Shown here piece after piece: positions 40,925-52,415 of a stretch of 64,000 nucleotides of DNA. Each line of letters begins with the position of its first letter. Position 1 is the first letter of the stretch. The position numbers and the translations under genes are program-made. The stretch is taken from positions 1 to 64,000 of the forward strand of contig DAHVCH010000003.1 of NCBI GenBank assembly GCA_027314165.1. Direction: 5' to 3'. The notes beneath the pieces were generated by a model. That model was not told the origin of the DNA. It made no database searches and saw only the letters and a program-made list of their open reading frames with translations. Origin of the DNA: Thermoplasmata archaeon (GTDB lineage Archaea > Thermoplasmatota > Thermoplasmata > Lutacidiplasmatales > UBA184).

Positions 40925-42075
40925 GTCACGAGCTCCTCGAGCCGGCCTTCGTCCAGGGCACGGCGGAGCTCGAAGGCCATGCGTCGTCCGGAAGACATCG
41001 GGACGCGCCACAACGTGTTGCCGTACGGGTGGCCCAGGGCCATGTGGATGTTCGTCCCCCCTCCGAGCCGTGCGGCCACGTCGAAGACGAAGAGCTTTCC
41101 GTCGTGGTCGATGCACGTCTGGAGACAGAAGGGCCCGATGATCCCGGGGGGGTAGCGCTCCCGAGCGGCGTCGACGAACTTCTCGCCGATCTTGAAGACC
41201 TCCTCCAGGAGCGACTCGCGGACGGTCAGGCTCCCGTGCCCGACCACGGTGTACTCGGGGATCCTCGCGATGTCGGGGAGGGCCAGTTGCTGCTCGGCCG
41301 GCAGCCGCACCATGCCGTCCAACGAGCTCTCCCGGCGCTCGTCCACGCCCAGCAGCTCGAGACGCTCGAGCCGCGGGGCCAACGGGCTCAGGAAGAAGTT
41401 GAAGTTGAACACCGGTCCCAGGATGTACTGCTCGATCCGCGCCCGGTCCAGGTCCTCCTGGGTCACGGTCCCCTGGGCGAGGAGCGCCGCGGATTTCTTC
41501 AGGAACTCCGCGTGCGAGGCGCAGGTGAAGAACCCCCGCTCGAGCCGCTTCTGGGCGTGCGGGAGCTTCACGATGGAGAGCCCCTCGATCTGCTTCACGT
41601 CCGCGATGGGGCGCGGCGTGGGGATCTGCGCCCGGTCGAGGAGGGTGTAGTAGTTCTCGCGCTCGCTGCGCTCCTCGATCCGGAGCATTGCGCGCGAGCC
41701 CAGGATGGGAAGGTGCAGCTGGTCCTCCAAGGCGTCGATCGCCAGGTAGGAGGAGAGCGCCCGGTTCGGCACGAGGAGGACCCCCGCCTGCCGCAGGCGC
41801 TCCTGCATCTCCTCCTTGAGCAGTTCATCGAACTTGTCCAGGACCATCGAGGTGTCCACGCACCCCTTCAGGAGGTTCCCGGTCACGTCGCGGAAGGCCC
41901 GGTAGTACTGGCTGTAGGTCTTCTCGCGACCCCGCTGGCAGATGGCCAGCGTCCGGAACCCCTCGGAGGCCGCCCCGTCGAACGTGTCGAGGGCCGAGTG
42001 GGAGGCGACTGCTCCGACGACCGGCGGGAGGGGGTAGTCCTTCAAGCGCGCCTGGACCTTTGACCGCTCGATCAC
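40921..42075 (-). CDS. purP: 5-formaminoimidazole-4-carboxamide ribonucleotide synthetase
   Basis: PurP uses formate and ATP to formylate AICAR in archaeal purine synthesis, without a folate carrier. The 384-residue protein matches in length and has ASHSALDTFDGAASEGFRTLAICQRGR near the N-terminus (substrate loop), VPNRALSSYLAIDALE, the ATP-grasp core (GSRAMLRIEERSERENYYTLL, YILGPVFNFNFFLSPL), and VFDVAARLGGGTNIHM with LGHPYGNTLW at the end. GTG start overlaps the stop of the large hydroxylase subunit by four bases. A bifunctional PurH is also encoded at 55503, so two routes for the same step exist. Confidence 0.93.
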   Translation of the reverse strand: MIERSKVQARLKDYPLPPVVGAVASHSALDTFDGAASEGFRTLAICQRGREKTYSQYYRAFRDVTGNLLKGCVDTSMVLDKFDELLKEEMQERLRQAGVLLVPNRALSSYLAIDALEDQLHLPILGSRAMLRIEERSERENYYTLLDRAQIPTPRPIADVKQIEGLSIVKLPHAQKRLERGFFTCASHAEFLKKSAALLAQGTVTQEDLDRARIEQYILGPVFNFNFFLSPLAPRLERLELLGVDERRESSLDGMVRLPAEQQLALPDIARIPEYTVVGHGSLTVRESLLEEVFKIGEKFVDAARERYPPGIIGPFCLQTCIDHDGKLFVFDVAARLGGGTNIHMALGHPYGNTLWRVPMSSGRRMAFELRRALDEGRLEELVT

Positions 42076-44375
42076 CCGACCGACCCCCCTGCGCGCGCGG
42101 GACCCTTCCCTTCAGCTGGGGTCGGAGCGCCCGAAGAGATAAGCCCGAGGGCTCGGGCCACCCGCTCCGGGGTCAAGGGCAGGTCCCGGACCCTGGCCCC
42201 CGTGGCGTCGGCCACGGCGTTGGCCACCGCGGCGGGCACCGGGATGATGGGCGGCTCGCCCACGCCTTTCGCCCCTCCGGGACCGCTGCCGAGGTACCCT
42301 TCGATCGCCTCGATGCGGAGCTCCCGCGGCACGTCGTGGATCGTGGGGACGCGGTAGTCAAGGAGACCGGCGTTCAGGAGACGTCCCTGGGGGGTCAGGA
42401 GCCCCTCCTCGGTGAGCGCCGTCCCGAGCCCCATGAGGATGGCCCCCTCCACCTGACCGCGGTAGCCCTCCGGGTCCACCACGTGACCCGCGTCCTGGAA
42501 GGCCGCGTAGCGCACCACACGCACGGCGCCCGTGGAGCGGTCGATGGCCACCTGCGCGAGATGGACGGAGGCGATCAGGTCCGCGTAGGGATAGAGCACC
42601 CCTTCCTGGACCAGGGAAGTGTCCAGCGCCTGGGAGCGCCCGTACTCCTTCCCATGGGACAGGATGCCGCCCTCCCGTCTCTCCTTCCGGGTGAGGAGCG
42701 ACGAGAGCGAGCGGACGCGATCGCCGACCCGCACGCGGACCTCCCGCTTCTCGAACAGGAGGACGGGAGCGCCCGTCCGCTTCCCTCCGCGAGCACCCGA
42801 GCCACCCTTGGACCAACGTGCCGCCAGCTCGCGCAGAAGGGCGAGGCAGCCCTTCTCCACGGCGCGTCCCAGGGCGATGGTGGTGCGGCTCCCCCAGACG
42901 CCGCTATCGAACGGGGCCCGGGAAGTGTCAGCGTACTCGACCCTCACCGCTTCGCGCGGGAGCCCCGTCCGGGAGGAGGCGATGGCCCGTAGCCCCTCGA
43001 CGATCGACCCCGTGCCGATCTCCCGTTCCCCTTGCAGGATCGAGAGCCCCTTCGGGCCCAACCGGAGGATCGCTTCTCCCCCAGAGGAGGTCCCGGTCGA
43101 CCAGAACCCGACCGCCGCACCGATCCCCGTGCCCTCGGCCCCCTTCAGTTCCGCGCGCCAGGCCTTCTCCAGCTCGTGCGCCCGGTCCAGGGCCTCCGCC
43201 GCCGCGAAAGGACCGACCTCCTGGCCGAAGGGGTTGATCTCCCCCGGGGTCCAGATGTGGGCCTTCCGGAACTCGATGGGGTCGACCCCCATCCGCCGGG
43301 CGAGCGAGTCCAGGTGGCTCTCCGCAGCGAAGGTGCACTGGGGGGCGAGAGGAGCGCGGTGGGGGCCGAAGGGTGGCCGGTTCGTACGGAGGGCGTACCC
43401 TTCGAGCTCCCAGGCCTCGAGACGGTACGGCCCGAGCGTGAACCCGAGGGCGAACCCCAGCGCGAAGTCGCGCCCGGGCAGGGAGGCCCCGGTGTCGAGC
43501 AGAAGACGTGTCCGGCGTGCGACGAGCCGACCGCCCTTCACGCAGCTCGACATCCGGAAGACCGCCGGCTGGGTCGTGCGCGTGAACAGGAACTCCTCGC
43601 GGAAGGTGAGCGCGAGACGGACCGGTCGACCGGCGAGCTTGGAGAGGAGCAGCGCGTGCGCCTCCAGGAGCGCCTCGTTCTTCCCTCCGAACCCTCCTCC
43701 GACCCAGGTCCCCTCCACCCGCACCTTCTCCTGAGGAAGGCCGAGCTTGTCGGCGAGGTCCTCCCGAAGACCGAAGGGCGTCTGGGTGGTCGTGCGGACG
43801 TGCCAGTCCTCTCCCGTCACCTTCGCCAGGCAGGAGTGAGGTTCCATCGGGACCTGGGCGACCATGGGGGTGCGGTAGACCTCCTCATGGACCAGGTCGC
43901 AGCTCCGAGCGATGCGGTCGAAGTCGCCGCGGTGGGCCAGGACGTGGGCGTTGACCCGCGGATCGGCCTTCATGCGATCCCGGTCCGGCCACTCGGAGAA
44001 TTCCGATTCGATGTCGGTGAAGGCCGGTTGGACCTCCCACTCGGATTTCACCAGACGCGCCGCGGCCCGGGCGGCGGCCAACGTCTCCGCCGCGACCAGG
44101 GCCACCGGTTCTCCCTGGAAGCGGGAGGCCTTCGCGACGAGCAGCGGGCTCGCCTCGTCGATCTCGCGGTGCGGGAGCAAAGACAGGACCTCTTTCGAGG
44201 TCAGGACCGCCCGGACCAGGGGGGCCCGGCGCGCCTCCTCCGTATCGAGGGAGACCAGTCGGGCGTGCGGATGCGGGGAGGTGACGTAGACCGCCCAGAG
44301 CATCTTCGGGGCGGAGAGGTCGAACCCGTACTCCCGGGCCCCGGCGGTCTTCGGGAGCGCGTCGGTCCGTGTCAT
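42072..44375 (-). CDS. Molybdenum hydroxylase large subunit (xanthine dehydrogenase/aldehyde oxidase family)
   Basis: The molybdopterin-cytosine-dinucleotide-type catalytic subunit, 767 residues. Visible are the N-terminal a/b hammerhead (KTAGAREYGFDLSAPKMLWAVYV), TQTPFGLREDLADKLGLPQEKVRVEG-x-VGGGFGGKNE, and the terminal GYRGQVEGAILMGLGTALTEE and GAKGVGEPPIIPV, where the glutamate near 703 is the general base of this family. The active-site loop of true CO dehydrogenases (VAYRCSFR) is not present, so CO is unlikely. The substrate (purine, aldehyde, nicotinate, other) cannot be told. ATG overlaps the small-subunit stop. Confidence 0.9.
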   Translation of the reverse strand: MTRTDALPKTAGAREYGFDLSAPKMLWAVYVTSPHPHARLVSLDTEEARRAPLVRAVLTSKEVLSLLPHREIDEASPLLVAKASRFQGEPVALVAAETLAAARAAARLVKSEWEVQPAFTDIESEFSEWPDRDRMKADPRVNAHVLAHRGDFDRIARSCDLVHEEVYRTPMVAQVPMEPHSCLAKVTGEDWHVRTTTQTPFGLREDLADKLGLPQEKVRVEGTWVGGGFGGKNEALLEAHALLLSKLAGRPVRLALTFREEFLFTRTTQPAVFRMSSCVKGGRLVARRTRLLLDTGASLPGRDFALGFALGFTLGPYRLEAWELEGYALRTNRPPFGPHRAPLAPQCTFAAESHLDSLARRMGVDPIEFRKAHIWTPGEINPFGQEVGPFAAAEALDRAHELEKAWRAELKGAEGTGIGAAVGFWSTGTSSGGEAILRLGPKGLSILQGEREIGTGSIVEGLRAIASSRTGLPREAVRVEYADTSRAPFDSGVWGSRTTIALGRAVEKGCLALLRELAARWSKGGSGARGGKRTGAPVLLFEKREVRVRVGDRVRSLSSLLTRKERREGGILSHGKEYGRSQALDTSLVQEGVLYPYADLIASVHLAQVAIDRSTGAVRVVRYAAFQDAGHVVDPEGYRGQVEGAILMGLGTALTEEGLLTPQGRLLNAGLLDYRVPTIHDVPRELRIEAIEGYLGSGPGGAKGVGEPPIIPVPAAVANAVADATGARVRDLPLTPERVARALGLISSGAPTPAEGKGPARAGGSVG

Positions 44376-45040
44376 CGGCGCCGCCCCCTCGGGGCCCTCG
44401 CGGCCTTCGCGGCCTTCGGGACCTTCTTGGGCGTCGCTTCCCGGCCCGGCCCCTTCACGCGCGGCCGTCCCGTAACGACCTGGAAGTCGGAGCGGGCGAG
44501 CGGCCTCTCCTCCTCCCCGATCTGCCCCTTCTCCGCCACTTCTCCGTCCTTCCCAGGACCGGAGCGGGCCGCGACCTCGGACAATGCCCGGAGGATCGCG
44601 TAGTACCCGGTGCATCGGCAGAGGTTCCCTCCGAGCTCCTTCGCCAGCGATTCCGCGCTACGGGGAGGACCTCCCGACCTCTCGCGGAGGAGCCCTTCCA
44701 CCGCCACGACGAACCCGGGAGTGCAGTACCCGCATTGGACCGCGCCCGCTCGGGCGAAGGCCTCGGCCACGAGTTTCGCCCCCGGGCTCCGGGCGGAGAG
44801 CTCGTCCGCGGTCTCGACCGATCTGCCCTCGGCCTCTCGCGCGGGCGTGAGGCAGGAGAGCACGCTCTTTCCGTCGACGAGGACCGTGCAGGCCCCGCAG
44901 TCCCCCGTGCGGCACCCTTCCTTCGTACCCTTGAGGCCGAGGCGCCACCGCAGGAGGTCGAGGAGCCGCTCGTCGTCCGGGACATCGGGGATGGAACGGG
45001 CCTTCCCGTTCACCTTCGTCCGGAGGGGTTTGGCGGGCAT
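44372..45040 (-). CDS. Molybdenum hydroxylase iron-sulfur subunit
   Basis: The electron-transfer subunit, 222 residues, with two [2Fe-2S] clusters. The plant-ferredoxin-like site is GCRTGDCGACTVLVDGKSVLSC at about 42-63; the C-terminal helical-bundle site is CGYCTPGF and LCRCTGYYAI at about 98-145. The family normally ends near 160; here a further 60 residues of Lys/Arg/Pro-rich sequence follow, with no clear role. ATG at 45038-45040 shares one base with the stop of the FAD subunit gene (TGATG). Confidence 0.94.
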   Translation of the reverse strand: MPAKPLRTKVNGKARSIPDVPDDERLLDLLRWRLGLKGTKEGCRTGDCGACTVLVDGKSVLSCLTPAREAEGRSVETADELSARSPGAKLVAEAFARAGAVQCGYCTPGFVVAVEGLLRERSGGPPRSAESLAKELGGNLCRCTGYYAILRALSEVAARSGPGKDGEVAEKGQIGEEERPLARSDFQVVTGRPRVKGPGREATPKKVPKAAKAARAPRGRRR

Positions 45041-45909
45041 CAGCGACCTCCTCCCTCTCTGAGCCTTTCCAGCGTGGATTCTATCCCGGAGCGGACCAGG
45101 GCCTCGAGCAGCTTGCGTCGGTACTCTTCCGCGGCCCGGAGGTCGGTCGCGAAGCGGGCCTCCTGCGCGGCCCGCTGGGCCGCCTCCGCGATCTCCTCCT
45201 CCGAGGGCCAGGGGGAGAGAAGGGCGGACTCGGATCCCCGCAACCTTTGGACCCGGGGCGAGGTCCCGCCGGCGACGATGCGCCAGTCGGGGGCGGAGGA
45301 GCCGTCGTGGGTGGGGTGGCGCACCACGGCGACCCCCACCTGGGAGATGTCGTTCGCCGGTCGGACCCGCTGCCATCGGTAGGCGCCCGGGAGAGGGGTG
45401 GGGATGCGCAGGTCCTCGACGAGCTCCCCCGGCTGGAGCTTCGTCCTCCACGAGCTCTCCACGAACTCGTCGAGGGAAAGGGACCTGCGGCCCTTCCGGC
45501 TCGAGATCGTGAGGCGGCAATCCATGGCGACCAGCGGCGGAAGAAGGTCCGAGGAAGCGGAGGCGCGCACGACGTTGCCCCCCAGGGTGGCGCGATGGCG
45601 CAGCTGCACGCTGCCCACCTCCGCGAGGGCTTCGGAGAGCGCCGGCAGGGCCCTCCGCACCCGGGGGTCGAGCTCGATGGTCCGGAGCGGGACCGTGCTG
45701 CCGATGCGGACCTCCCGCTCCCCGAACTCCACCGTGTCGAGCGGCAGGCGGGAGAGGGAGACCACGCGTTCGGGCGCGAATCGGCGGAAGTCCATGGCGA
45801 GCAGCAGGTCGGTCCCTCCGGCCATCGCCATCGAGGAGCCGGGGGCGCCCTGCTCGAGAAGGGTCCAGGCTTCTTCCAAGGAACGCGGGAGGAGCAGCTC
45901 GAAGGGCAT
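45040..45909 (-). CDS. Molybdenum hydroxylase FAD-binding subunit
   Basis: The flavin subunit of the same enzyme, 289 residues. It begins MPFELLLPRSLEEAWTLLEQ and has the FAD motifs AMAGGTDLLLAMDF (about 29-42) and TLGGNVVRASASSDLLPPLVAMDC (about 108-130), then the CODH FAD C-terminal domain. The gene order FAD, Fe-S, large is the common archaeal and bacterial order. It is the first gene of a five-gene unit and is divergent from a winged-helix regulator at 46048. Confidence 0.93.
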   Translation of the reverse strand: MPFELLLPRSLEEAWTLLEQGAPGSSMAMAGGTDLLLAMDFRRFAPERVVSLSRLPLDTVEFGEREVRIGSTVPLRTIELDPRVRRALPALSEALAEVGSVQLRHRATLGGNVVRASASSDLLPPLVAMDCRLTISSRKGRRSLSLDEFVESSWRTKLQPGELVEDLRIPTPLPGAYRWQRVRPANDISQVGVAVVRHPTHDGSSAPDWRIVAGGTSPRVQRLRGSESALLSPWPSEEEIAEAAQRAAQEARFATDLRAAEEYRRKLLEALVRSGIESTLERLREGGGR

Positions 45910-45920
45910 GGCCGGGTCGG

Positions 45921-45980
45921 AGCGACCACCCCTCAATCCGCTTTCGTATCCGGTCGCTAGGGGGTTCCCCGTACAGGTAC
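45921..45980. promoter_or_regulatory. Promoter of the molybdenum hydroxylase operon with flanking inverted repeats
   Basis: AGCGACC (45921-45927) and GGTCGCT (45952-45958) are perfect inverted arms on either side of the minus-strand TATA-like GATACGAAAG (45941-45950). GGGGTTCCCC (45961-45970) and GTACAGGTAC (45971-45980) follow directly. They lie between the operon start at 45909 and the regulator gene at 46048, so they are candidate binding sites for that regulator. This is inference. Confidence 0.4.
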
Positions 45981-46047
45981 GTGCCCGCGTGGGGTGTCCT
46001 GCCCCCCGCGACCTCCCGCCTCGCAACGTTCATCTTCCCCGGTCGGC

Positions 46048-48583: not shown

Positions 48584-48693
48584 CGGGCTCGCCGGGAGTT
48601 CCTCCCCCGGTCGCTTTCCGCGGCCGAGGAGATTCGAACCCGGGTCGATGGCTCCGAAGGCCATCAGGATAGTCCAAACTACCCCACGAGCCC
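48584..48693 (-). tRNA. tRNA-Arg(UCG) with a 35-base intron in the T-loop
   Basis: The minus strand reads a full tRNA once a T-arm intron is removed. 5' acceptor GGGCTCG (48693-48687) pairs with CGAGCCC (48591-48585), G73 at 48584. The anticodon arm is ATGGC-CTTCGGA-GCCAT, anticodon TCG, so arginine CGN. The T-arm runs CCGGG-TTCGAAT, is interrupted, and resumes with CCCGG (48596-48592). The intron is about 48631-48597. T-loop GTTC can pair with GAAC at the intron end as the 4-base centre of a bulge-helix-bulge, with an inner helix CTCC/GGAG. Cleavage would be at 59/60 or 60/61. Mature length 75; CCA is not encoded. Confidence 0.88.
48597..48631 (-). other. T-loop intron of tRNA-Arg(UCG)
   Basis: A 35-base insert. 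Its 5' CTCCTCGG can pair with the CCGG-G-GGAG near its 3' end, and a small CGC/GCG helix closes a GGAAA loop. The boundaries are ambiguous by one or two bases because of repeated T and C at both ends, as is usual for archaeal introns. Confidence 0.8.
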
Positions 48694-48731
48694 GGGGGAC
48701 GCAGGTTGGCCCGAGGTCATAGGTGTTCCGG

Positions 48732-51700
48732 TCACGCCGCCGGATCGGGGGGCTCGGTCCGGGGGGCCGCGGAGGGGTCCTCTTCCTCCGACGGAGGGGC
48801 GGGACGCTCCTCGGTCTGGAAGTCCTCCAGCTCCACCGTTCCCGGACCCGCGGGGAAGAGGCTCGCGAAGGAGCTCTCCAGGACCTCCACCCGCTGGCGC
48901 AGGTAGGTGGAGACCCCGTAGCGCTTCGCCAGCTCGCGCGAGAGCCCGAGATACTTCATCACGCTGCTCGGGTACACCGTGGGTAGCAGCTCCCCTCCGC
49001 ACCGCTTCTTGTCGTGGTACTCGGGGCAACGGCCGTCGAGCGCGGGACGCCGCAGCGAGCTTCCGCAGGCCTTGCAGCGGAACTTCTGCGTCGCGTAGCT
49101 CTTCATGTTGCCCATGATGTCGGGAAGGAAGTGGTGGTTGAGCAGCAGCCCGACCGCGTCCACCATGTCCACCCCCCGTAGCTGGGCCCCGAGCAGGAGC
49201 GTGTCCTCCACCGTCCGGGCCATCCCCCGAGCCTCGCGGTAGGCCGACTGGTGCGGCCCTCCCCCGATGTCGGAGGTGTCGTGGGTGAACCCCATCCGGG
49301 AGAACTGGAGCGGGCCCTTCTCGAGCCGCTTGCCCAGGGTGTCGATGAGGGCCTCCACGGTCTTGGGGGAGGCGTTCTTCTCGGCGGCCTCGTAGAGGGC
49401 GAGCGGATAGGTGAGCGCGACGTCGACGTTCTGGGCCTCCTTGTCCACCTCCCGGGAGTCGAGCCGGGTGGTGAGGACCAGCGGCTTGTCCATGAGCGCC
49501 CCCCGTTTGACGGGGAGATAGGCGAAGGAGAAGTTCAGCAGGCCGTCCATGAGCAGCGTCACGGAGTCCTCGTCCCCGTCGCAGTTGCGCCGCTTGGCGG
49601 CGTGGAAGACCGGATGGGCGAAGCACCCCTCCACCTCCGTGTAACCGACGACCCGACCCAGTACGCCTCCGGAGGTGTGGGGGGCGAGCGCGATCACGAG
49701 CTGGCCCAGCAGGTCGTTGCGGTGGCGGGCCCGGTAGAAGGGCTCGAGCCCGTAGAGCAGGTGGAGCTCGTCGTCGACGAAGCGGGAGAGCGCAAGGAGG
49801 TACTCGCCGCACCGCTTGGCGACGATGATGTCGTGCGGCAAGATCTCCAGGAGCTGGTCCTCGCGCTCCAGCGGCTCTCCCGTCCAGTCCCGCGCGTAGC
49901 CCAGGGAGCGGGCCTTGGCGACGCTGAGCCCGACCTCCCTAGGGCGGAAGTGGGTGAGCGGAAGGTCGGTGAGATCGAACCTGGCCGTCCCGTCCTGGTA
50001 GACGCTGACCGCGTGCAGGGCCCTCAGCACCCCCTTCTCGAGGGGCTCGGGCGTCTTGCCCTGGGAGACGAGCCCCTTGACCCCCTTGACCTCCCGGGGG
50101 AACTTCGAGAAGCCGAGCCCCCGTACGCAGCGGTCCCAGAGCTCGTGGAACGGGAGCGGCTGCTGGACCACCTTGTCGGTGGGGACGGTGTGCCCCCCGC
50201 ACGTGCACCGGTTGGAGATCGTCTCCTGGGAGCAGGTGGAGCATTGCCGGAGCCCCAGCCCCACGGTCATCATCGACATCGTCGGGGCGGCCGAGGAGCG
50301 GGGGGACGGGCGCGAGGAGGGAGAGCTGCGGTCGAGTTCGCGCGCCCGTTCCGCGGCGACCAGGAGCGAGCGCTTCGGCCCTCCCGCTTCCCCCACCGGG
50401 AACAGCACGTGGACGTTCGGCGACATCACGCGCTGGTAGGCCTTCTCCGGGCGCCCGACCCGCGCTCCTACGCGCGTCGGACCCCGGGGCTTCCAGAGGA
50501 TCCCCGACAGTCGGGCCACCTCGGCCATCGCCTCCGCCGCGGGACCGTCCAGCGGGGTCCGCCGGTGGAGCTCCCCGCTGCGCTCGTCCACCTCCAGCCC
50601 CAGTCCGAGAAGGAAGGCGCCCGCGAGGCGGGGTTCGAGGGCGAGCGTGCTCCCCTCCCGGTGGTGGAGGGCCCCGAGCACGAGGAGCGTCTCGCGCAGC
50701 GCGGGGTCGGAGGGGAGATGGAGCGTCCCGTCCTTCCACGCGCTCTGGTCCTCGACCCTTCGGGAGAGCTCGTCGATCGCCTGGACGGTCAGGTCGTGCC
50801 AGAAGAGGTTGAACCGCGGGTGGAGAGGGACGCCCAGCCGCTGGGAGTCCTCCAGGGCCTCCGGGAAGCTGGGAGCGACCGCCCTCCGGTCCAGAGCGGC
50901 CCCTTTGGCGCGGAGCATCTCCAGGTGCCAGGCGAGGGAATACCCTCCGGGGGCGAGCGCCCGGTTGTTCTCCAGGAACTCCCCGAAGGAGACCAGGATC
51001 TCGCCCAGGTCCAGGATCCGCTCGACGTGCGGGAGAAGCTCGTCGGCCCGGTCGGCATCGTCGACCTGGGTGTACGTACCGTCGTCCAGGAGGACGAGGG
51101 GCCCCTCGACGGTGTCGCAGGTGGCCATGGCCGCCGCCTTGCCGGGAAGCTCGGTCTTCACCTGGGTCCCGATCGCGACGAAGTGCCGCAGGAGCACCAT
51201 CGTGGCCGGGTTGATGCCGCACGCGGCGAGCCCGGTCGTCCGGCACCTGCCGTAGACGAGCCGGAACCCTCCGGGCCGGTGCGGATAGGCCAGGACCGGG
51301 CGCCCCCCTACCGCTTCCGCGAGGTACTTGGGCAGCGCCCCCTTCTCGGCGTCGTCGTCCTTCGAGCCCTTCTGCCCTACGCGCTTGAGGAACTCCCAAC
51401 CCTCCAGGGAGAGCCCCTTCTTGCGCAGGTTATCGACGATCTTGAGGACCTTCGGGGCCTTCAGGCAGAGCCCCTCCGCGATGACGAGGCAGGCGCCTCC
51501 CCGGACCCCGTTCGTGTCCACGCGGGGCACGTTCCGGAACGCGCTGACCTCCTGGTCGCCCTCGGTGGCCTCCCCGTTCACGCAGACCGGGAGGTTCGTG
51601 ACGACGGTCCGGACCTCCTCCACGGAGGGGGAGTACTGCAGGTGCTGCAGGTGCTTGTAGAGCGGGAGCTCCTCGCAGTACCGGCCGGTCTCGCCCTCGG

Positions 51701-52214
51701 TGGCCTTCCAGCGTGAGAGGCCGAGCTTCTCGCGCACCACGTCGGCGAGAAGGACCGAGACCGCCTGGGCACCCCCGCCGGCCGCGCGGATCGGGCCGGC
51801 GTAGAACAGGTCGACGTAGTCCCCCTGGGGGTCCGGGTGGATCTCGACCTTCACGAGCCCCTCCAGGGGCGCCACCACGATCCCCTCGGTGAGGACGGCG
51901 AGGCCGACCCGCAGGGCGACCTCGAGGCGCTCCCCGATGTTCCCCCGCGAGGGGTCGACGGCGAGCTCCTGGGCGAGCGCGATCGCCACCTCCTCGCGCG
52001 AGATCTTCGGCTCCTGCGAGGAGAGCGCGCGGATGCGGTCCGCCACCCCGTGGACCGGCCACTTCCGGAGGAGCTTCTCGACCCGGGAGGCGAGGTCCTG
52101 CGCGCGGGGAATCTCGACCTTCGTCTCGGGGTCGATGCCCAGGGCCCGGGCGCGACCCGCCACCTCGTAGGCGCGGGTCACCTCCTCCTCGAGGTGATGG
52201 AAGTACTCCTCCAA
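48732..52214 (-). CDS. polC: DNA polymerase II (PolD) large subunit DP2
   Basis: The catalytic subunit of the replicative D-family polymerase of euryarchaea, 1160 residues. The start MEEYFHHLEEEVTRAYEVAGRAR (from TTG 52214) matches the family; the frame is open to 52277 but that lies ahead of the TATA box. Marks are YAGPIRAAGGGAQAVSVLLAD, EGETGRYCEELPLY, GDQEVSAFRNVPRVDTNGVRGG, CGINPATMVLLRHF, zinc site CSTCSQET-x-SNRCTCGG, the catalytic NCDGDEDSVTLLMDGLLNFS with the essential aspartates, and a C-terminal zinc finger CKACG ... CPEYHDKKRCGG. No intein. DP1 is not in the window. Confidence 0.96.
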   Translation of the reverse strand: MEEYFHHLEEEVTRAYEVAGRARALGIDPETKVEIPRAQDLASRVEKLLRKWPVHGVADRIRALSSQEPKISREEVAIALAQELAVDPSRGNIGERLEVALRVGLAVLTEGIVVAPLEGLVKVEIHPDPQGDYVDLFYAGPIRAAGGGAQAVSVLLADVVREKLGLSRWKATEGETGRYCEELPLYKHLQHLQYSPSVEEVRTVVTNLPVCVNGEATEGDQEVSAFRNVPRVDTNGVRGGACLVIAEGLCLKAPKVLKIVDNLRKKGLSLEGWEFLKRVGQKGSKDDDAEKGALPKYLAEAVGGRPVLAYPHRPGGFRLVYGRCRTTGLAACGINPATMVLLRHFVAIGTQVKTELPGKAAAMATCDTVEGPLVLLDDGTYTQVDDADRADELLPHVERILDLGEILVSFGEFLENNRALAPGGYSLAWHLEMLRAKGAALDRRAVAPSFPEALEDSQRLGVPLHPRFNLFWHDLTVQAIDELSRRVEDQSAWKDGTLHLPSDPALRETLLVLGALHHREGSTLALEPRLAGAFLLGLGLEVDERSGELHRRTPLDGPAAEAMAEVARLSGILWKPRGPTRVGARVGRPEKAYQRVMSPNVHVLFPVGEAGGPKRSLLVAAERARELDRSSPSSRPSPRSSAAPTMSMMTVGLGLRQCSTCSQETISNRCTCGGHTVPTDKVVQQPLPFHELWDRCVRGLGFSKFPREVKGVKGLVSQGKTPEPLEKGVLRALHAVSVYQDGTARFDLTDLPLTHFRPREVGLSVAKARSLGYARDWTGEPLEREDQLLEILPHDIIVAKRCGEYLLALSRFVDDELHLLYGLEPFYRARHRNDLLGQLVIALAPHTSGGVLGRVVGYTEVEGCFAHPVFHAAKRRNCDGDEDSVTLLMDGLLNFSFAYLPVKRGALMDKPLVLTTRLDSREVDKEAQNVDVALTYPLALYEAAEKNASPKTVEALIDTLGKRLEKGPLQFSRMGFTHDTSDIGGGPHQSAYREARGMARTVEDTLLLGAQLRGVDMVDAVGLLLNHHFLPDIMGNMKSYATQKFRCKACGSSLRRPALDGRCPEYHDKKRCGGELLPTVYPSSVMKYLGLSRELAKRYGVSTYLRQRVEVLESSFASLFPAGPGTVELEDFQTEERPAPPSEEEDPSAAPRTEPPDPAA

Positions 52215-52247
52215 ACCGGGAACCCAGTGTACCCACCGGTACCCCGA

Positions 52248-52256
52248 GCATAAAGG
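52248..52256 (-). promoter_or_regulatory. TATA box of the DP2 gene
   Basis: On the minus strand CTTTATGC in CCTCCTTTATGCTCGG. It places the start of transcription near 52224, ten bases before the TTG at 52214, and lies inside the longer frame that begins at 52277. Confidence 0.5.
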
Positions 52257-52415
52257 AGGGGGAACGGACACGGTCACCCCTCCCCGAAGTCCGACCCGCC
52301 GACCGCGCGGGCGACACGCAATCGGTATGGAGGGGCCCCGGTGGGCACGGGGGGGCCGGGGTTACGAGGAGCACCGAAGACGACGCGGTCCCGGGGAAGC
52401 GCCCTTCGGTCGGGG

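Follow-up and report, generated by a model that had tools for sequence, protein, structure and literature searches.

Predicted T-loop introns with a canonical bulge-helix-bulge motif in tRNA-Arg(UCG) and other tRNAs of Thermoplasmatota with a loop-free alpha'2 splicing endonuclease

The tRNA-Arg(UCG) gene was found at positions 48584..48693, on the minus strand, of the window (the whole stretch of 64,000 nucleotides that was analysed). The window comes from a soil archaeon whose lineage is Ca. Lutacidiplasmatales, an assignment drawn from its family, members of which have contigs in common with named isolates of the order; Ca. Lutacidiplasma belongs to Ca. Lutacidiplasmatales within the Thermoplasmatota (PMC9287336). 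Judged from its sequence and from those of its relatives, this is a functional gene (probability about 0.9) with a predicted 35-nt intron at tRNA position 59/60, whose canonical bulge-helix-bulge (BHB) motif would be cut by a splicing endonuclease (EndA) of the alpha'2 type and whose exons would be joined by RtcB. A sequence-only reading of the window had proposed that an intact tRNA-Arg(UCG) is interrupted in its T-loop by a BHB intron, and the proposal held: removal of the insert restored the cloverleaf, and the motif recurred across 100 introns.

All features of the gene lie on the minus strand. The G1 nucleotide is at 48693 and the discriminator G73 at 48584, and covariance model R1 scored the gene at 70.5 bits. 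The 5' exon (48633..48693, tRNA positions 1-59) was assigned by reading of the sequence and by a T-arm scan, and genus g3 has a nearly identical mature sequence at its empty site. The anticodon UCG was found at 48655..48657 by ARAGORN and by reading. The 3' exon (48584..48597) contained U60, the 3' strands of the T-stem and the acceptor arm, and G73. With the 35 nucleotides taken out, a minus-strand re-reading gave a perfect 7-bp acceptor arm (48585-48591 with 48687-48693) and a 5-bp T-stem (CCGGG/CCCGG), completing the cloverleaf; the fold z was -3.5 for the precursor and -4.8 for the spliced form. The exons are in order on one strand with the intron alone between them, so that the gene is neither a split nor a permuted tRNA. 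The intron had earlier been placed at 48597-48631. This gives the same spliced product, since the ends of the insert repeat and the boundary can slide, but the family-wide rule AA↓N...AC↓U60 (the arrow marking the exon-intron border) puts the boundary at 59/60, that is, at 48598-48632.

The gene for the large subunit of DNA polymerase II (DP2), at 48732..52277, is co-oriented with tRNA-Arg(UCG) and ends 38 nt upstream of it, and the description of the host as a DP2-containing genome was confirmed, the host being a member of the Thermoplasmatota. A candidate BRE/TATA element, GGAACACCTATGA, was seen by eye at 48717..48729, about 24-36 nt upstream of G1, with weak statistics; similar GGAAC..CCAAATA/CCTTATA elements were likewise seen by eye upstream of many orthologues. 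Elsewhere in the window, 42072-46033 (minus strand) contained molybdenum hydroxylase genes with MoCoBD and Fer2_2 domains, similar to xanthine dehydrogenase/CO dehydrogenase.

Standard finders miss the gene, as had been expected. ARAGORN reported a tRNA-Arg(tcg) at the locus with the gene end placed inside the insert, and the Rfam tRNA model scored it at 20.1 bits, below the cut-off of 29 bits (E = 0.16 in the whole-genome search). CGA codons are in use, with 38 of them across six genes of the window. The tRNA counts of Thermoplasmatota, and the codon-reading inferences drawn from them, are likely to be too low where finders score unspliced genes. The whole assembly of the window genome was searched and its sequence was read around the tRNA matches. 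Two candidates that ARAGORN reported when introns were allowed were rejected: C26:375-472, called as Arg(UCG), has the body of a tRNA-Glu, and C55:3079-3194, called as Arg(GCG), is a tRNA-Tyr with an intron at 37/38. In tRNA-Glu(UUC) with a 37/38 intron, at C26:375-472 and also in genome G008, position 33 seemingly contained C instead of U.

The motif was read over 100 distinct T-loop introns from 15 isoacceptors. Throughout the set, the exon-intron borders lay in two 3-nt bulges separated by a helix of 4 bp, with AA↓N in the 5' bulge and usually AC↓U60 in the 3' bulge. At a fixed distance from the intron 3' end, U54 and U55 each faced A or G in all 100 introns and C56 faced G in 99; G57 faced C in 76 of 79 cases, and A57 never faced C (U in 5 and G in 16). 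The family consensus is the pairing of U54-U55-C56-R57 with an intron 3' end of (C/G/U)GRR. The pairing of T-loop GTTC with GAAC proposed earlier (G53-C56) came close; it was dropped for the 54-57 register after the 100 introns had been counted. In the window the T-loop strand of the central helix, U54-U55-C56-G57, is at 48635..48638 and faces the intron 3' end AGGA at 48600..48603, giving U54-A, U55.G, C56-G and a G57.A mismatch. The window copy thus has three of the four central pairs, and its mismatch is common to 3 of the 66 Arg orthologues; its motif is slightly off canonical and slightly worse than that of most relatives. The relaxed forms (hBH, HBh' and BHL) do not describe the intron set as a whole, and the window copy departs by this single mismatch. 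As predicted from pairing, nearly all of the T-loop introns contain a canonical BHB at a noncanonical position.

The inner helix was found to start at intron base 2, with pairing of 94, 96, 85, 89, 87 and 87% at successive positions; shifted by one base, it was mostly about 20-60%. In an alignment of 25 precursors, with the middle of the intron masked, 94.5% of the cells were paired vs 31-52% when slid, and both sides changed in all six inner-helix pairs. The Arg(UCG) orthologues alone had 357 of 390 inner-helix cells paired, against a shuffled mean of 261 and maximum of 288. In the window the inner hairpin is at 48604..48631, beginning with C-G, U.G, C-G, C-G and U.G pairs; the predicted lowest-energy fold of this copy paired intron U1-A30 instead.

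The T-loop intron had first been taken for a lone oddity, but at least nine tRNAs of the window genome, among about 40 tRNA genes seen, were found to contain one when weak matches were read and T-stems and acceptor arms were scanned, and the pattern is phylum-wide. The nine are Arg(UCG), Asn, Asp, His, Ala(GGC), Gly(UCC), Lys(UUU), Ser(GCU) and Ser(GGA). The scan, which required T-stem and acceptor pairing and made no use of the T-loop bases of the central helix, returned 166 intron hits vs 19 in shuffled sequence. Among the relatives, the complete genome G006 contained 13 T-loop introns and G008 contained 12; relatives that are 93-100% complete showed the same pattern as the 86%-complete window genome. 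T-loop introns were also present in other families of the order, where some tRNAs contained both 37/38 and 59/60 introns. Covariance model R1, built on T-loop-intron tRNAs, also matches intronless tRNAs, at up to 61.5 bits in the calibration genomes; counts were therefore made at E <= 1e-14 or by direct reading. At that threshold, 84 of 392 Thermoplasmatota genomes matched, a count from which short introns, like those of 13 nt in G038, are missing; at a looser cut, each of the 52 class-sample genomes from the window's family gave 7-11 matches. Outside the order, most of the T-loop-intron examples read were tRNA-Arg(UCU), including examples from genomes of a methanogen family, which encodes methyl-coenzyme M reductase. 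Two cases outside the class (G287 and G273) were tRNA-Asp with 59/60 introns and the same GAAAA↓U end, which suggests that the trait is old.

Introns were also seen in the D-loop. By eye, tRNA-Lys(UUU), Leu(UAG) and Arg(GCG) of the window genome (contigs C1, C4 and C15) contained one, that of Lys at about 20/21. D-loop introns with BHB-like pairing recurred in Lys(UUU), Leu(UAG), Arg(GCG), Met and Pro across the window genome, G006 and G008, and tRNA-Lys was found with a D-loop and a T-loop intron together in three families of the order. No intron sequence similarity between different tRNAs, of the kind that transposition would leave, was evident by eye.

A DNA pattern of the T-arm and intron, applied to 84,980 species genomes, matched 66 contigs. 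Of these, 65 were labelled Thermoplasmata or Ca. Lutacidiplasma silvani, and 64 (Thermoplasmata MAGs) contained a complete tRNA-Arg(UCG) with a T-loop intron. The remaining label, 'bacterium', belongs to DAIDCO010000016.1, which contained a Lutacidiplasmatales-type tRNA-Arg(UCG) with the T-loop intron and is probably a mislabelled archaeal MAG. An exact intron-free site in tRNA-Arg(UCG) was found in genus g3 and in genome G019. Since G038, of a different family of the order, contains the T-loop intron in this same tRNA, the intron was likely lost in genus g3. In G039, of another family, tRNA-Arg(UCG) (C20:5891-6182, 292 nt) was without the T-loop intron and contained an insert of about 217 nt at 37/38, unusually long for an archaeal tRNA intron.

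A finder score below cut-off and one mismatch in the BHB might be expected of a tRNA copy in decay, or of a pseudogene that gained its insert by chance. We consider this very improbable, as the exons of the Arg(UCG) orthologues are about 95% identical against about 59% in the intron interior, all seven acceptor pairs are kept in 66 of 66 orthologues (in a scan that itself demanded acceptor pairing), and the insert site is common to 15 isoacceptors. A second intact gene, together with a lack of splicing in RNA, had been named as the mark of a decayed copy; no other tRNA-Arg(UCG) was found in the genome as assembled, which is fragmented and 86% complete, so that a second gene, like a second endonuclease, could be missing from it. 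Still less probable is a long T-loop retained in the mature tRNA. In its favour is, indirectly, the stable fold of the unspliced RNA; against it, the insert ties up U54-C56, on which the elbow depends, varies from 13 to 41 nt with only the splice-motif bases conserved, and is absent from exact empty sites.

The intron might also be removed by some other or auxiliary nuclease, or by an alpha'2 EndA in which an element of relaxed specificity has gone unrecognised, and the sequence-only reading had likewise called for an endonuclease that accepts relaxed motifs. Noncanonical introns have been tied to EndAs of the (alpha-beta)2 and epsilon2 types that bear CSL/ASL loops (PMC12397907, PMC6379350, PMC4033280), Korarchaeum, cited as the one alpha2 archaeon with noncanonical introns, has an EndA with a loop (PMC4033280), and the motif of the window copy is slightly relaxed. 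Against this stands the endonuclease itself, the type of which was checked as had been advised. The window genome as assembled contained one PF01974 gene, of 378 aa with two fused domains, whose closest PDB entries by sequence were 5x89 ('EndA-like protein, tRNA-splicing endonuclease') and the EndA of A. fulgidus. In 59 of 61 relatives, each genome had two PF01974 domains in one frame and no further PF01974 match; the phylum-level relatives tested also had two domains in one frame, the second domain of G273 being below the cut-off. A CSL/ASL insertion was absent from the 378-aa EndA and from the EndAs of relatives that were read, the loop segment having the A. fulgidus length; it was measured by pattern in 30 EndAs, three of which were mis-measured in this way and were read directly instead. 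We take the inserted segment that the A. fulgidus EndA of entry 3p1y has at this place to be a grafted Crenarchaea-specific loop. An A. fulgidus enzyme with such a grafted loop has been described (PMC6379350). The sole endonuclease found is, as predicted from its sequence, a loop-free enzyme of the fused homodimer type (alpha'2), and neither (alpha-beta)2, epsilon2 nor CSL/ASL-bearing. Since the introns themselves contain the canonical BHB, which is cut by all archaeal EndA types (PMC8707768), the earlier call for a relaxed enzyme is unsupported and a separate nuclease or element is unlikely.

Splicing of a canonical motif by the alpha'2 EndA, which we prefer, would proceed as follows. The T-stem of the precursor would form as in the mature tRNA, and U54-R57 would pair with the last intron bases into a helix of 4 bp, flanked on either side by a 3-nt bulge and capped by the intron hairpin. 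Because the motif is the canonical BHB, the fused EndA homodimer should cut both bulges wherever the motif sits in the tRNA, and RtcB, which is encoded in the window genome, would ligate the exons into a normal T-loop. An alpha'2 homodimer from Thermoplasmatales cleaves minimal BHB RNAs that lack a tRNA body (PMC8707768), so that no new activity has to be assumed for the proposed mechanism. As U55 and C56 are tied up in the precursor, the D-loop/T-loop elbow could form only after splicing; end processing that depends on the elbow, and modification of the T-loop, should likewise come later.

A wider reading, to which we give somewhat better than even odds, is that this is a phylum-wide architecture in which the T-loop would serve as a universal docking site, the host sequence would set the intron position and splicing would license elbow formation. 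The sequence UUCRA varies little between T-loops, so that any hairpin ending in (C/G/U)GRRA(C) would make a canonical BHB at 59/60, whichever the tRNA. By this pairing rule, the universal T-loop sequence may be an easily invaded site. If so, introns reached up to 13 tRNAs per genome without change in a narrow alpha'2 endonuclease, and their position came from the host sequence, not from the architecture of the enzyme.

The occurrence of 59/60 introns in the T-arm of Thermoproteales tRNAs is established, and reviews mention T-loop positions as well as permuted tRNAs joined at 59/60. Our literature search found no paper on T-loop introns in Thermoplasmatota, some of which automatic tRNA-database annotation may already list, and the main text of the Lutacidiplasma genome paper is without mention of introns (PMC9287336). 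The T-arm introns of Thermoproteales and other Thermoproteota are similar to those described here in site, in BHB form, in their presence in several isoacceptors and in some tRNAs with two introns. However, Thermoproteota have an (alpha-beta)2 EndA with the CSL and often relaxed motifs (PMC6379350, PMC4033280), whereas in Thermoplasmatota the predicted enzyme is a fused alpha'2 lacking CSL/ASL, and the introns contain the canonical motif. The 37/38 introns of Euryarchaeota, with alpha4 or alpha'2 EndA, are similar in enzyme type and hBHBh' motif and differ in position; according to reviews, these archaea contain single introns at the canonical 37/38 position only (PMC4090602). Korarchaeum (alpha2, CSL-like loop) and ARMAN-1/2 (epsilon2, ASL) also combine a homodimeric enzyme with noncanonical introns, but their enzymes carry a specificity loop, absent here. 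The soil Asgard archaea Atabeyarchaeia and Freyarchaeia, likewise uncultured, contain unexpectedly many noncanonical tRNA introns; they belong to a different phylum, 92-95% of their tRNAs are affected and the endonuclease is unmentioned in the text of that paper (PMC11291895). In the accepted account, the EndA subunit architecture and the specificity loop decide where archaeal tRNA introns sit. Here, T-loop introns, nearly all with canonical motifs, occur many to a genome in dozens of species whose alpha'2 enzyme is loop-free (one complete genome has 13), which separates motif from position. As read from these sequences, they would break the positional part of the published rule and keep its motif part, and for a direct test of the positional rule one enzyme and two transcripts would suffice.
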